Assembly (NCBI RefSeq): GCF_022818495.1 | Contig: NZ_CP089291.1 | Span: 3,861,501-3,925,500, forward strand | Origin: Fodinisporobacter ferrooxydans | GTDB lineage: Bacteria; Bacillota; Bacilli; Tumebacillales; MYW30-H2 | DNA: 64,000 bases | Direction: 5' to 3' | In this document: one piece after another, positions 6,054 through 13,962 of the stretch | Numbering within the stretch: the first letter of the stretch is position 1 | How the letters are laid out: each line of letters opens with the position of its first letter | Program-made: the position numbers and the translations under genes | Notes under the pieces: generated by a model | Database searches by the model: none | The model's input: only the letters and a program-made list of their open reading frames with translations | Told to the model about the DNA's origin: nothing

Positions 6054-6493
6054 TTAAATTGGTTTGATTCCAAGAATTATAATAGCTTCTGTTCTGACTT
6101 TAAAATCTATCTTAGCCAAACGAATCGGTGTAAGAATACCGATTCCCGTTAAGAACATGACGATCAAAGATATTTGAAAAAAATTCAAAAGGCAACGTAA
6201 TATCAATGAGAAAACTGAAATTGTTTGCAGCCGTCAACATTACATTGAAATTTTTGTATGAATACTTCAACAAAACGCCCAATAGCATTTTGAATACGAT
6301 AAAGTAGCAAAATAAGACCCCTATAATAAACAATAGAAGAATAGTGGGAGTAAATAGGAGTGTACAATCTGTATATTTTTCCAACAAATATAAATTCAAA
6401 AACCATTGTAGTAACGAAGTAGATAAGCATCGTAATGATTCTTCGTCTAAGTTCTTCTAGGTGTCGGACAAGACTCATTTCTGAATCAGACAT
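6054..6493 (-). pseudogene. tatC: tatC pseudogene (deletion plus frameshifts)
   Basis: Three reading-frame pieces together recall TatC, the multi-span receptor of twin-arginine export. Piece one starts at ATG 6493 (AGAGG upstream) with the signature MSLVRHLEELRRR and the first helix. Piece two, in another frame, has LLLFIIGVLFCYFIVF and the NFSFL...LPFEF helices. Piece three, in the third frame (about 6150-6054), reads GIGILTPIRLAKIDF, the family's conserved loop, then ends at a TAA at 6054. Roughly 60 residues between the first and third helices are missing. It follows tatA by 19 bases. A functional TatC must be encoded elsewhere if the neighbouring Tat substrate is exported. Confidence 0.8.
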
Positions 6494-6511
6494 CCATAAC
6501 AACCTCTACCT

Positions 6512-7177: not shown

Positions 7178-7228
7178 AGTTTGATACGCATTTTATCTAG
7201 TCCTGACTTATATTGTGCTGATTAGCCA

Positions 7229-8674
7229 TCATGTTTCAATTTTATTTTCTTGCGATTGGACAGGGGACTGATTCCAATCCGAAATAGAGAGGCTTTTTTT
7301 GACTTTACTATTATAATACGCCACGAGAACAGCAAGCCATATAATACCGCCGTACACGGAAATTTTTGTTAATGGCGAAGTAAGGATCGCAACAAACGCT
7401 CCCATCAGCAAAATCAGTCCAAAAATAGGAAGTGTAGGCCAAAGCGGCATAGGATATTTCAGGGTTTGGTTTCGTCTGTTGGCTCTTTTTCTATGAACGA
7501 TTTCACTTACCAAAATGATGCCCCATGTCCAAAGAGAGGCAAAAGCAGAAGCGCTCGTTATCCAAACATATACGCTTCCTGGTGCCAAATACGTAATAAA
7601 AATCCCAATCGAGATCATTGCTGCAGTCGCCCATACGGCTATATGAGGTACATGATTTTTATTGAGTTTTGTAAATATTGGATTATATAACCCTTTACTC
7701 GCCATCCCATATAGCATTCGGCTTCCACCGTAGACGCCTGTATTGCAGGAGGAAAGGGCAGATAGAATAATGATCAAATTCACTAGTCCTGCTGCAACGG
7801 GAATGCCAATTTTCGAAAATAAGAGCACGTAAGGGCTTACCCCTTTTTCGATCAGGTAATTCCAGGGAAATGCACTCAACATGATTAAGATGGAGCCGAT
7901 ATAAAAGATCGAAATTCGGATCGTTACAGAACGGAAAGCTCTCCGCATTGTAGACGCAGGATTCTGTGATTCACCCGCTTCAACCGCCAGTGTTTCTATT
8001 CCACTATACGCTTGCACCACCAGGGAGAATGCTGCAAATGCTCCTAACCAGCCGTGTGGCAAGAACCCGCCATTTGTCCAAAGGTTAGTGAGTCCAACTG
8101 CATGGCCGTTATTGAAAATGCCAGTCAAGATGATTAACCCGCCAAAAATCATAAATACTATGACAGCCGTTACTTTTAGAAAAGCAAACCAATATTCGAC
8201 TTCACCAAAAATTTTTACCGCAAACATATTGGAAAAGGTGAAAAGAATTAAAGCGATCAACCCAGGGATCCATGCCGGGAAGGACGGAAACCAATATTGC
8301 AATAGACTGCCGATTGCTGCAAGCTCCGACATAACGGTAGCAACCCAATAAAACCACCACATTCCTGATGTCAAAAAGCCCATTTGTGTGCCAAGCAGTT
8401 CTCCGGCATAATGACTAAAGGATCCCGCAATTGGGTTTTCGACTGTCATTTCACCAAGCGCCCGCATTACGAGAGCGGCAAGAATTCCACAAATAACAAA
8501 AACAAGCAATACTCCAGGTCCCGCCAATTTTACAGAAGTGGCGGCACCATAGAACAATCCTACTCCTATAACTCCACCGATCGCCAACATTTGAATTTGC
8601 CGATTCGAGAGGCTGCGATGGAGTCCATCTCCTCCATTTTTATTCGAATTTTCCACATCGTTCGATAATTCCAT
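7229..8674 (-). CDS. Amino acid permease (APC superfamily, AAT family), candidate taurine transporter
   Basis: A 481-residue protein with about twelve hydrophobic helices. The IQMLAIGGVIGVGLFYG start and the GEMTVENPIAGSFSHYA block are typical of the amino acid transporter family that includes GabP and ProY. ATG at 8674 follows AGGAGG with seven-base spacing. It is co-oriented with tpa-pduL-xsc, about 420 bases downstream of tpa. No TauABC importer is visible in the window, so this symporter is the likely taurine (or beta-alanine/hypotaurine) uptake system of the cluster. The substrate is inference from context; the family is secure. Confidence 0.85.
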   Translation of the reverse strand: MELSNDVENSNKNGGDGLHRSLSNRQIQMLAIGGVIGVGLFYGAATSVKLAGPGVLLVFVICGILAALVMRALGEMTVENPIAGSFSHYAGELLGTQMGFLTSGMWWFYWVATVMSELAAIGSLLQYWFPSFPAWIPGLIALILFTFSNMFAVKIFGEVEYWFAFLKVTAVIVFMIFGGLIILTGIFNNGHAVGLTNLWTNGGFLPHGWLGAFAAFSLVVQAYSGIETLAVEAGESQNPASTMRRAFRSVTIRISIFYIGSILIMLSAFPWNYLIEKGVSPYVLLFSKIGIPVAAGLVNLIIILSALSSCNTGVYGGSRMLYGMASKGLYNPIFTKLNKNHVPHIAVWATAAMISIGIFITYLAPGSVYVWITSASAFASLWTWGIILVSEIVHRKRANRRNQTLKYPMPLWPTLPIFGLILLMGAFVAILTSPLTKISVYGGIIWLAVLVAYYNSKVKKSLSISDWNQSPVQSQENKIET

Positions 8675-9092: not shown

Positions 9093-10454
9093 TTATTTAC
9101 AAAATTCCATCAATACCTCCTCAACTGTATCTACAACAAAATCCAAATCTTCTTCAGTAGAAGAAAGAGGAGGTGCTATAATTAATACATTGTTAAATCC
9201 AGGAACAGTATCACCATTCCGACCAATAATAAGGCCTTTCTTTGTACAAGCGGCAATAATATTACCCATCAATTCTTCTGAAACCGGTGTTTTTGATACT
9301 TTATCTTCAACTAACTCAATGCCATAAAGAAATCCTTTTCCGCGAACCTCCCCTACTTTACTCAAAGCTGTCAGGTCATGCAATTTGCCCAAAATTGATT
9401 CACCTAAATTTGCAACCCGTTGGACGATTTGCTCATTCTCAATGATTTCAATATTTTTCAGGGCGACCGCGCATGATGCCGGATGGCCACCATAAGTAGA
9501 GACGTGTCGCAAATGATTATGGGTGCCGTTCTCTTTGAATTTCTCATAGATTTTTGAGCTTACTGCCGTAGCTCCTAATGGGAGGTATCCACTTGTCAAC
9601 CCTTTTGCCATGGTAATAATATCTGGTTTTACTTCATCAGAATGCATAAATCCAAACATTTTTCCCGTTCGCCCAAAACCAGACACGACTTCATCAAGAA
9701 TGAGAAGTACATCATGCTTTTTACAAATTTCTGCAACCCGTACCAAGTACTCTTTTGCTGGTATGATCACTCCACCGCCAGAAATAAAGGGTTCCATAAT
9801 AACTCCGGCAACTGTCTCCGCTCCTTCCCAGGAAATCACTTGGTCAATAAAATCAGCTGCTGCGAGATCGCTGTTAGGCATATCGCCAAACGAGGACCGA
9901 TAACTGTACGGAGGTGGAACATGCAGAAATCCGGGCGCTGTCGGGTCATATTTCATTCTTCTGTTCGCTTGTGCTGTTGCGCTCATTGCACCTAAAGTAG
10001 AACCATGGTATGCACGATATCTGGAAATGAATTTATATTTTCCCGGATTCCCGTTTTGTGCATGATATTGGCGTGCAATTTTAAAAGCTGTTTCATTCGC
10101 CTCTGACCCACTGTTCGAGAAAAAGGTTCTATATGAACCTTGTAAAAGCTCACTGATTTTTGCGGATAATTCGATGGCAGGGACGTGGCTTAAAGTCAAA
10201 GGGAAATAAGATAAGCTCATCATTTGCTCGAATGCTGCAAGAGCAATTTCTTTTCTGCCATGCCCCAGATTTAAACACCATAATCCGGAAACTCCATCGA
10301 GATATCGATTTCCATCCATATCCGTAAACCAAGATCCTTCTCCACGCCGCGCAATGAAAGGAAGCGCTTTTTCGTTATGCTTAGCCATCGCATGCCACAA
10401 ATAATCCCGATCTTTTTGAACAAGATCTTCTGTATCAATATTTACACTCATCAT
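9093..10454 (-). CDS. tpa: Taurine-pyruvate aminotransferase (class III, PLP-dependent)
   Basis: A 453-residue class III aminotransferase. Visible landmarks: the SNSGSEANETAFK cofactor-phosphate block near residue 112, the LILDEVVSGFGRTG block with the PLP-contacting Asp, and the lysine that forms the Schiff base in TMAKGLTSGYLPLGA. The fold subgroup also includes other omega-amino acid-pyruvate transaminases; the taurine assignment rests on the co-oriented xsc gene, whose substrate sulfoacetaldehyde is the product of taurine transamination. The co-product would be alanine. Two adjacent ATG codons (10454, 10451) follow GGGAGGG. An alanine dehydrogenase remnant lies just upstream. Confidence 0.82.
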   Translation of the reverse strand: MMSVNIDTEDLVQKDRDYLWHAMAKHNEKALPFIARRGEGSWFTDMDGNRYLDGVSGLWCLNLGHGRKEIALAAFEQMMSLSYFPLTLSHVPAIELSAKISELLQGSYRTFFSNSGSEANETAFKIARQYHAQNGNPGKYKFISRYRAYHGSTLGAMSATAQANRRMKYDPTAPGFLHVPPPYSYRSSFGDMPNSDLAAADFIDQVISWEGAETVAGVIMEPFISGGGVIIPAKEYLVRVAEICKKHDVLLILDEVVSGFGRTGKMFGFMHSDEVKPDIITMAKGLTSGYLPLGATAVSSKIYEKFKENGTHNHLRHVSTYGGHPASCAVALKNIEIIENEQIVQRVANLGESILGKLHDLTALSKVGEVRGKGFLYGIELVEDKVSKTPVSEELMGNIIAACTKKGLIIGRNGDTVPGFNNVLIIAPPLSSTEEDLDFVVDTVEEVLMEFCK

Positions 10455-10506
10455 TTACCCTCCCATTTTAACAAGTAAAAGCGTTAAACTATTAAACTTC
10501 CCATTG

Positions 10507-10623
10507 TTATACCGCAATGGGATTATCATGTAACACGGTATCTAAGGGACAGTATTTATACCCATGTGCTTCCGCTACTGCTTTATGTGTTACTGTTCCA
10601 TCAATAACGTTAAATGCTACCAG
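10507..10623 (-). pseudogene. ald: 3' remnant of an alanine dehydrogenase gene
   Basis: Thirty-eight codons plus stop, directly behind and in frame with the pduL stop codon, read FNVIDGTVTHKAVAEAHGYK and end at a TAA at 10507. This matches the C-terminus of alanine dehydrogenase (compare the N-x-x-x-G-x-V-T-x-x-A-V-A pattern in Bacillus Ald). The rest of the gene is absent. Alanine dehydrogenase regenerates pyruvate from the alanine made by Tpa and is a usual member of taurine operons, so this is best read as the scar of a deletion between pduL and tpa. Confidence 0.75.
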
Positions 10624-11217
10624 TTATATCGATCCATTTTTTAACAGGAGAACTTGATCGCCCGATTTCAATCTAGCTGCGTTAGCCTCGTCGGTATCGA
10701 TATGAAACTCCAGACAATATTGGGAGCTTACTCTGATTTTTACTTCATTAAAGATAATGGGCCGTTCGAATCTTGAGATCACATTTACAAAATCTCCTTC
10801 ATGAACTTGAAATTGTACTGCATCTTCTTCTGACATGTGGATATGTCGACTTGCGATAATTAAACCTTCTTGTAAATAAATGGATCCTTTTGGCCCGATA
10901 ATTGTTATCGGGCTACTACCACCAAGATTTCCTGATTCTCGAATTGGTGGAGAAACTCCGAGACAATATGCATCTGTCAAAGATACTTCAACTTGAGTCG
11001 CCGGACGGTTAGGCCCAAGTATTCTTGCTTTATCAATCGTCCCTTTTGGCCCGGTCAGCATAACTGTTTCTTTAGCGGCATACTGGCCAGGTTGCGATAA
11101 ATGTTTGTAAACTTGCAATTGATAACCTTTGCCAAATAATAATTCGACATGAATCGCTGATAAGTGAACATGCCTTGCTGAAACACCTACGGGAATAAGG
11201 AACAATGCATCATTCAC
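10624..11217 (-). CDS. pduL: PduL-type phosphate acyltransferase (phosphotransacetylase)
   Basis: A 197-residue protein built of two PduL repeats. The first has IPVGVSARHVHLS near residues 8-20, the second ASRHIHMSEEDA near residues 120-131; these His-rich motifs bind zinc in characterised PduL enzymes. The reaction is acyl phosphate + CoA to acyl-CoA + phosphate. Between xsc and tpa its job is almost surely to turn the acetyl phosphate released by Xsc into acetyl-CoA, replacing the unrelated Pta found in most described taurine operons. The start is uncertain: GTG at 11217 abuts the AAGAAGG, while an in-frame TTG at 11205 has better spacing. No shell-protein genes accompany it. Confidence 0.85.
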   Translation of the reverse strand: MNDALFLIPVGVSARHVHLSAIHVELLFGKGYQLQVYKHLSQPGQYAAKETVMLTGPKGTIDKARILGPNRPATQVEVSLTDAYCLGVSPPIRESGNLGGSSPITIIGPKGSIYLQEGLIIASRHIHMSEEDAVQFQVHEGDFVNVISRFERPIIFNEVKIRVSSQYCLEFHIDTDEANAARLKSGDQVLLLKNGSI

Positions 11218-11261
11218 CTTCTTTTTGCCACGGATTCAGGATTACAAAATACAAGTAAAAA

Positions 11262-13046
11262 CTAGATACGGGTAAACGTTGAATTCCAATTTCTATGATC
11301 CAGATGAGAATATTTTGGCAATAGGCGAGTTGGCATTTTTAGAGCATCTTTTCTGAATGGAGGAGCCAGTTGCGTTCCATCAATCTGGATATCTATTACT
11401 GTTGGTTTATTGGATTTGATTGCAGCCTCAACAGCCGGGCCAATATCTTCAGCCTTTTCCACTCTGACACCAACGGCACCCATTACTCTGGCGATCTCTG
11501 CAAAATCTGGATTCTTGATATCAGCTCCAACAAAATGATTATTATAATAATCAACCTGATTTTTCTTTTCAGCACACCATGCTCCATTGTTAAAAACGCA
11601 GGCAACAACTGGAAGGTTCTCATCTACGGCAGTACTCACTTCATGCAAACTCATACCCCACGCACCATCTCCTACAATCGCCACAACCGGGCAATCAGGT
11701 CGGGCAAGTTTTGCGCCAAGAGCTGATGGAAAAGCGAAACCAGTATTGCCAAATGTCAATGCAGCGATATGTTTGCGGCCTTGATTAAATTTGAGATAAC
11801 CGTTCGCTGTGGATGATACATTTCCAATATCTGTCGTGACGATCGTATCCTCAGGTAAAACTTTTGTTACTTCTAATAATGCTCTACGAGGATTGATCGG
11901 ATTCCCATCAATCATTGCAAGGGAGACTTGTTCTTCGTCCCATCTTTCCTTTTCTGTCGCAATTTCCAACAAACGCTGATGATTTGTCTTTCGATTCGAA
12001 TCTATTTCTCCCAATCTATTAAAAATCTCAGCACTTGATAAACGCGCATCTCCGATAATGCCTACTTCAATGGGATGTGTCCGCGCAATATTTCTCGGAT
12101 TAATATCGATCTGAATAATTTGGGCGTTAGTAGGAAAATAATCAATACCATAGCAAGGAAGAGTACCAAATACTGATAATCTGGTTCCGATAGCTAAAAC
12201 GACATCTGCTTTTTTCAGTGTATTCATGGCCGCTTTTGATCCCATGTAGCCAATTGGCCCAACTGCAAGAGGGTGATTTGCCGGAAAAGCGTCGTTGTGC
12301 ATATAAGAAACGGATACTGGCGCAGTCAAGTATTCTGCAATCGCTTTCACTTCCTCGTGACCATCAGAGTCAACAGTCCCTCTGCCAGAAATAATCACTG
12401 GATACTTTGCATTTGCGAGCAATTTCGCAGCTCTTTCTATTGATTCGGGTGAGCCGGCACCGCGACAATCGACACGATATTGATGTGGCTTAAGGATTTG
12501 TTCTTCTATCTCACCGAAAAAATAATCTCGCGGTATATCATATAAAACCGGCCCTCTCTCGGCATACGCTATACGAAACGCGGTTCTCAAACAGTCTGCA
12601 ACACGGCTTGGATGTGTAACACGAACCGTTTCTTTGGTTATCGCTTTGAAAACGGATACCTGATCACATTCTTGGAAACCATCCCAGCCAACGGTTGGAG
12701 TTCCTGCAGAAGGAGAGATCACGACCATAGGAGTGTGTGCCTGATTTGCCGCAGCAACTGAAGTCGCCATATTCGTAATTCCTGGACCGTTTTGCCCGAT
12801 AACAACCGCAGCTTTGCCCGAAACACGGGAAAATGCGTCAGCCAAATGGGCTGAACTCTGCTCATGACGAACACCAATAAACCGAATCCCCGCATCCGGC
12901 AGTAAATCAAGGAGATCCATAAATGCCGAACCTAAAATCCCACTGATATGAGTGACTCCTTCTGCCACCAATGTCTCAACGATGGCTTCACTGGTTGTCA
13001 TTTTTGTTTTTGTGCCTCTCAAATTTTCAGTTTCAACTTTTAACAT
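11262..13046 (-). CDS. xsc: Sulfoacetaldehyde acetyltransferase
   Basis: A 594-residue thiamine diphosphate enzyme that cleaves sulfoacetaldehyde with phosphate to acetyl phosphate and sulfite. The cofactor-activating Glu is in VRHEQSSAH, the diphosphate motif runs from GDGAWGMS to the NNGAW block, and [10 protein letters not shown] and GFQECDQ match positions characteristic of Xsc rather than acetolactate synthase. ATG at 13046 follows AAGGAGG by nine bases, giving a 15-residue extension before the usual start of the family. It heads the minus-strand order xsc-pduL-(ald scar)-tpa. A promoter and a large inverted repeat lie upstream. No sulfite dehydrogenase or TauE-like exporter gene is seen nearby. 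Confidence 0.9.
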
Positions 13047-13239: not shown

Positions 13240-13941
13240 TTACCTTGACATTTTCATAGCAAAAGAATACATATCAGAACGAAACAGTCCTTTATAATAC
13301 TCAACTAAATTTCCTTCCGGATCCGAGATCATTCGTTCATTAACTAACAAACACATAGATTGTGGGATATCTAATTGCTCTGCCTCCTCCTCTGACGGAT
13401 GTTCACATGTAATAATCTGCTCTGCTTCCCAAAACACTACCTTTAAATCTTGTTCAAGAGCATCATATAGAATCACTTTATTCAAGTCATATTGGGATAA
13501 TTTTTGGCCAAGTTCCAAAGGATAATAATGAGTTTCAATAGCAATAGGAATATTGCCCTCTAATCGCAATCTTTTAACATAAAAACACCTGTCATCAAAG
13601 CCGTGTGCATTACTGATATTATCCGGGGTAGAAATAATGCCTTGATCCAGCAATTTTATCCCTTTTGTTTTAATAGTTTCTGTAAAACTCGTCATTTTCA
13701 GCCATTCTTGAACCTGCCTCAACGAAATAAATGTTCCTTTTCCATGTATTTTTTCTAAAATGCCCTCATTTACCAAGTTTGAAATGGCTTCCCTTACAGT
13801 ATTCCTACTAACGGAATACATTTCCATCAATTCTCTTTCGCTCGGAATTTTGTCTGTATAATACCCTTGACGTATTTGATTTTCCAATATATTCTTCAAT
13901 TGAACGTGTAATGGGATTGGGTTGTTGCTATCTAATTCCAT
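13240..13941 (-). CDS. GntR/HutC-family transcriptional regulator of the taurine cluster
   Basis: About 233 residues. The N-terminal winged helix (LHVQLKNILENQI ... IPSERELMEMYSVSRNTVREAI) is typical GntR; the C-terminal part from about residue 90 is a UTRA-type effector domain like that of HutC. The start is taken at ATG 13941, five bases after GGAGAGG; an ATG at 13959 would add six residues. It is transcribed in the same direction as xsc, which begins about 190 bases downstream. Shared TACCA...TGGTA repeats before both genes suggest it controls itself and the taurine operon; the ligand is unknown. Confidence 0.82.
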   Translation of the reverse strand: MELDSNNPIPLHVQLKNILENQIRQGYYTDKIPSERELMEMYSVSRNTVREAISNLVNEGILEKIHGKGTFISLRQVQEWLKMTSFTETIKTKGIKLLDQGIISTPDNISNAHGFDDRCFYVKRLRLEGNIPIAIETHYYPLELGQKLSQYDLNKVILYDALEQDLKVVFWEAEQIITCEHPSEEEAEQLDIPQSMCLLVNERMISDPEGNLVEYYKGLFRSDMYSFAMKMSR

Positions 13942-13962
13942 AAAATCCTCTCCAGACATACC

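Follow-up and report, generated by a model that had tools for sequence, protein, structure and literature searches.

A probable deletion scar of an alanine dehydrogenase gene in the taurine operon of Fodinisporobacter ferrooxydans

The taurine operon of Fodinisporobacter ferrooxydans raises the question of what became of its alanine dehydrogenase gene (ald), and whether the pathway can work without it. The DNA examined, called the window here, is a stretch of 64,000 nt (GCF_022818495.1, NZ_CP089291.1 positions 3,861,501-3,925,500), and coordinates refer to it unless a contig or locus is named. The operon lies on the minus strand in the order gntR - xsc - pduL - scar - tpa - permease, in which the scar is the short stretch under discussion. 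The genes around it are all full-length: a GntR/UTRA regulator gene at the head of the cluster (13240-13959), the sulfoacetaldehyde acetyltransferase gene xsc (11262-13046; TIGR03457, 829 bits, cut-off 676), pduL of the phosphate propanoyltransferase family (10624-11217, 197 amino acids; NF011652, 261 bits, cut-off 209), the class III aminotransferase gene tpa (9093-10454; NF005812, 700 bits, cut-off 488) and an amino-acid permease gene (7229-8674). With xsc scoring over its cut-off and both a class III aminotransferase and a phosphotransacylase adjoining it, the cluster qualifies as an Xsc-type taurine operon. The aminotransferase is proposed to be a taurine:pyruvate aminotransferase, taurine as substrate and pyruvate as acceptor being suggested by the adjoining xsc.

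The scar is a stop-free stretch of 38 codons followed by TAA in the open reading frame listing (10507-10623, minus strand, TAA at 10509-10507). It starts immediately 3' of the pduL stop codon (TAA, 10626-10624) and is in the same frame. The original prediction regarded it as the C-terminal codons of a deleted ald, and this was borne out, although the similarity to Ald covers the last 35 of the 38 codons: 10507-10614 (35 codons plus the stop) match residues 343-377 of the 377-residue operon-type Ald of Aneurinibacillus thermoaerophilus (locus L016), with the first three codons (CTG GTA GCA) outside the alignment. In a tblastn search of 90 loci the C-terminus of this protein was the best foreign match (56% identity over 36 residues, E 1.4e-10). 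The best local alignment of the scar fell in the last 45 residues for each of 44 distinct intact Ald proteins, and the top score of 118, again with the L016 protein, compares with a maximum of 52 among 500 shuffles of the 38-mer. The other Ald of the scar's own genome scored 59 and ranked 33rd of the 44. The 38-mer matched no NCBIfam profile, gave a single, unrelated Pfam match under the cut-off, and found four PDB entries, all alanine dehydrogenases, with weak scores (E 0.17-1.5). Profile libraries recognise it poorly because it is so short; it is the relatives that identify it.

With 35 of about 377 codons left, the scar cannot encode a working Ald, and it gives no full-length TIGR00518 match over the cut-off. 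Reading of the sequence revealed no ATG, GTG or TTG near its beginning; apart from the last few codons, the sole in-frame codon of this kind is codon 30, a GTG, and the scar would accordingly yield no protein. What it does display are the features of a gene remnant: significant partial similarity, an intact counterpart at this position in relatives, and no capacity to code for a working protein. To judge from these features, the scar is most probably the dead 3' end of an ald gene that once stood between pduL and tpa.

Relatives with an intact ald between pduL and tpa, which the original prediction had proposed to look for, were indeed found. The A. thermoaerophilus locus has the order gntR-xsc-pduL-ald-tpa-permease, and locus L105 (genome G162) shares it with a longer pduL-ald spacer; in both, the regulator and permease genes are in the same place as in the window. 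A further locus with this order, L106 (G112), has identities equal to those of L016 in every gene and probably derives from the same or a near-identical strain. This synteny, together with the affinity of the scar to the operon-type Ald, supports the claim that ald was deleted from the operon. Genome G001, which belongs to the same taxonomic order as F. ferrooxydans, has xsc - pduL - tpa - permease without ald. No scar was detected in that operon, so it is uninformative on whether the loss is shared, and the family of F. ferrooxydans is represented by one genome among those compared. As derived from locus coordinates and the alignment start, the distance from the last PduL codon to Ald codon 343 is 1,059 nt in L016 and 24 nt in the window, a net loss of about 1,035 nt. 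The deletion, in one or more steps, would have taken the spacer between pduL and ald along with roughly the first 342 codons of ald, leaving pduL and tpa whole. Scar and L016 share 20 of 36 residues and differ at 11, 5 and 22 first, second and third codon positions. For L016 and L022, an intact pair with the same number of shared residues, the differences are 13, 3 and 24. Since the scar follows the pattern of this intact pair, most of its divergence seems to have accumulated under coding constraint, before a late death of the gene.

The junction (10615-10638, minus strand) comprises 24 nt from the last L016-aligned PduL codon to the first recognisable ald codon and contains the pduL stop codon. 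The last four residues of PduL, NGSI, extend past the end of the L016 protein without a counterpart there; they could be native or derive from the junction. The in-frame position of the scar may be inherited, as pduL and ald share a frame in L016 by arithmetic on locus coordinates. In another frame, 23 nt of the junction (10616-10638) read W-I-D-I-T-G-S, and residues 34-39 of the Ald encoded by a second remnant in the same genome (see below) read W-I-E-T-G-A. A 5' segment of ald at this place would imply a two-step deletion, but the similarity is not significant: with ten ald targets, the score was reached by 1131 of 2000 shuffles and by 1001 of 2000 random 23-mers taken from the window. With only the second remnant as target, picked post hoc, the counts were 56 and 31 of 2000. 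The exact junction had no match in viral_contigs, which has little bearing on chromosomal DNA.

PduL itself retains the histidine-bearing motifs SARHVHLS and ASRHIHMS in the alignment of homologues, which we take to bind metal. PduL, not Pta, is found between xsc and ald or tpa in the window, L016, L105 and L094, where it presumably acts as the phosphotransacylase. No description of PduL in such an operon position was found in the literature searched; the available text of PMC10327494 covers PduL, sulfoacetaldehyde and taurine, with PduL and the taurine route named separately.

Taurine operons without ald are common. Among 80 loci screened, 49 had a Tpa homologue (at least 40% identity) within 5 kb of xsc; ald is carried by 30 of them and absent from the fetched stretch in 19. 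Three of the 30 (L061, L064 and L069) have a Tpa identity of only 43-44%, and in L049, L080 and L084 ald lies upstream of gntR or divergent from xsc. Genomes were searched with TIGR00518 for the ald-less loci and 24 of the 30 ald-bearing ones, plus the window genome (G000) and G001; L031, L037, L043, L061, L064 and L069 were set aside, and after L049 and L050 had dropped out 43 genomes were covered. At least one full-length ald over the cut-off was present elsewhere in all 20 genomes with an ald-less operon, and at least two in total in all 23 with an operon ald, so that each of the 43 has a full-length ald outside the operon (for the 23 this follows from the presence of at least two copies). 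Because of this, the absence of ald from an operon does not equal the absence of recycling, and an operon without ald should not be taken to mean that taurine carbon is not used or pyruvate not recycled. The same search gave partial ald matches at G401:C5:64435-64779, G402:C29:85745-85936 and G421:C16:15794-16339, one of them with five stop codons.

The genome of F. ferrooxydans, a single contig of 4.86 Mb, likewise contains one ald over the TIGR00518 cut-off (C1:4348373-4349506; 577 bits, cut-off 392), about 476 kb from the scar, as the original prediction had recommended checking. Its product aligns nearly end to end with the alanine dehydrogenase structure 8hyh (residues 1-376, E 1.7e-171). 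Some 0.2 kb upstream, in the same orientation, lies a gene for an AdeR-type regulator; it matches NF058503 with 483 bits, below the curated cut-off of 700, so that it falls short of a formal assignment as AdeR. In Paenibacillus sabinae, ald1 is activated by AdeR, which responds to alanine, according to the available text of PMC9894248, and that of PMC11077977 also cites B. subtilis in the context of AdeR and ald. Since AdeR of Paenibacillus activates ald on alanine, and alanine is the product of Tpa, pyruvate is most likely recycled in trans. Tpa would convert taurine and pyruvate to sulfoacetaldehyde and alanine, the carbon would reach acetyl-CoA via Xsc and PduL, and the intact ald beside the AdeR-type regulator would regenerate pyruvate and release ammonium. 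By this analogy alanine from Tpa would induce the very enzyme that removes it, and the full-length ald is the most likely means of alanine recycling. The expectation that another enzyme would have to recycle alanine holds as to the locus, which is a different one, and fails as to the enzyme, which is the same. As judged from gene content, the taurine pathway very probably still works. For the explanation as a whole, a deletion scar of ald in a pathway that continues with ald encoded elsewhere, we estimate a probability of roughly 0.88.

The scar is not the only ald remnant. In the same genome the 38-mer matched C1:254617-254718 (56%), part of a second remnant on the minus strand (G000:C1:254617-254861; L104:7615-7862) in which an N-terminal piece (Ald residues 1 to about 41) runs into a C-terminal one (about 335 to the end) in another frame. 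The join carries ATTAG, possibly a short repeat through which the deletion took place. Codon-position differences from L016 are 11, 8 and 22, with slightly more second-position changes than in the scar. This remnant sits between a divergent regulator gene, whose product gives sub-threshold matches to PmfR and AdeR, and a broken methylmalonate-semialdehyde dehydrogenase gene mmsA (L104:6429-7564), which keeps only profile positions 2-128 and 254-477 and has lost about 125 (129-253). Next after mmsA are genes for an aminotransferase that shares 57% identity with Tpa and for a sodium:alanine symporter, and further along one for an aldehyde dehydrogenase, named by eye; these contents suggest an operon of the beta-alanine type. 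A third remnant, again on the minus strand, is found in G001 (G001:C1:3864353-3864598; L133, about 7200-7900), where the first nine or so residues and about residue 290 to the end form one open frame. Within the window, tatC is apparently broken as well (6112-6502, minus strand), with profile positions 2-42 and 92-155 in two frames. The genome of F. ferrooxydans also holds a second xsc, 79% identical to the first, in a cluster (L091:7490-13495; G000:C1 about 4056500-4062500) with genes for an iron-type alcohol dehydrogenase and Pta beside a sigma-54 activator. The alcohol dehydrogenase reaches 208 of 700 bits with the SarD model and 258 of 550 with ErcA, its best model; the cluster possibly serves isethionate use.

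Two other readings concern the 38 codons themselves. One is that PduL naturally extends into them, at its C-terminus or by read-through. Their position directly behind the pduL stop codon and in frame suggests this, but it has hardly any likelihood: in an alignment of six PduL homologues, half of which belong to taurine operons, the proteins stop 0 to about 11 residues beyond the last commonly aligned position and none carries an Ald-like tail, the one outcome that the original prediction had named as contrary to it, while in L016 and L105 the corresponding residues end a complete ald. Retention of the scar for a function, for example as spacing or as a regulatory RNA for translation of tpa, would account for 35 stop-free codons with a coding-like pattern. 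Late death of the gene explains the open frame, and the region 10400-11300 has no terminator-like site and three promoter-like sites against a shuffle mean of 3.0. The scar also lacks a nearby start codon, and none of the 19 ald-less Tpa-bearing loci has a scar detectable at E 0.01, which makes a function very unlikely.

The remaining readings concern the meaning and the cause of the loss rather than the identity of the scar as an ald remnant. The original prediction had considered that without ald the operon might use taurine as a nitrogen source only, with no local recycling of pyruvate. The operon copy is gone and most Tpa-bearing loci (30 of 49) do have ald, but such a change of role is not needed and appears improbable, for the genes of the presumed carbon branch, xsc and pduL, are full-length and exceed their cut-offs, one full-length ald remains in the genome, and ald is absent from 19 of the 49 loci anyway. 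A better case can be made for general gene decay in the strain, which would say nothing about taurine metabolism; it concerns cause and is compatible with the preferred explanation. Since mmsA and tatC are broken too, internal gene loss appears widespread in this strain, and nothing clearly sets ald apart; the second ald remnant points the same way. The full-length genes around the scar, however, indicate that the operon as a whole was kept, and we rate the chance of this reading at a little under even. More tentatively, the operon ald may have been lost repeatedly because a product-sensing adeR-ald locus makes it redundant, an idea we regard as doubtful. AdeR linkage was tried as a cause of the loss and rejected: an AdeR-like match lies no more than 3 kb from a full-length ald in 16 of 20 genomes with an ald-less operon and 12 of 23 with an operon ald (Fisher p 0.11, not significant), by hand count in genomes that are not independent by descent, ten of the 20 being near relatives (Peribacillus-type loci L012, L013, L018-L021, L023-L025 and L027). 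AdeR-like matches in the 43 genomes were all below the curated cut-off.

By itself the deletion of ald is an ordinary loss of a gene and simply explained, and the literature searched (titles and the beginnings of abstracts) held no earlier description of the scar. It does suggest a testable question, namely whether the operon ald is lost where a product-induced copy exists. If so, recycling of the amino acceptor would shift from substrate-induced operons to one alanine-induced gene; F. ferrooxydans would have made this shift twice, in the taurine operon and in that of the second aminotransferase, and the G001 remnant would be a third case.

Compared with known systems, the scar resembles the operon-type Ald (TIGR00518) of A. 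thermoaerophilus in its place between pduL and tpa, its strand and its C-terminal sequence, but retains only the last 35 codons. The Tpa-Ald pair of Bilophila wadsworthia, as far as described in the available text of PMC6386719 and PMC8667426, shares with the proposed pathway the transfer of the amino group to pyruvate by Tpa and the regeneration of this acceptor by Ald, whereas in F. ferrooxydans the gene for Ald lies at a separate locus and its product would act in trans. Sulfoacetaldehyde, which goes to SarD and IslA in B. wadsworthia according to the same text, would go to Xsc in F. ferrooxydans. In comparison with the adeR-ald locus of P. sabinae (PMC9894248, available text), the putative AdeR of F. 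ferrooxydans stays below the curated cut-off and its alanine response is assumed by analogy, whereas the arrangement of a full-length ald adjoining an AdeR-type regulator gene on the same strand is observed directly and common to both.
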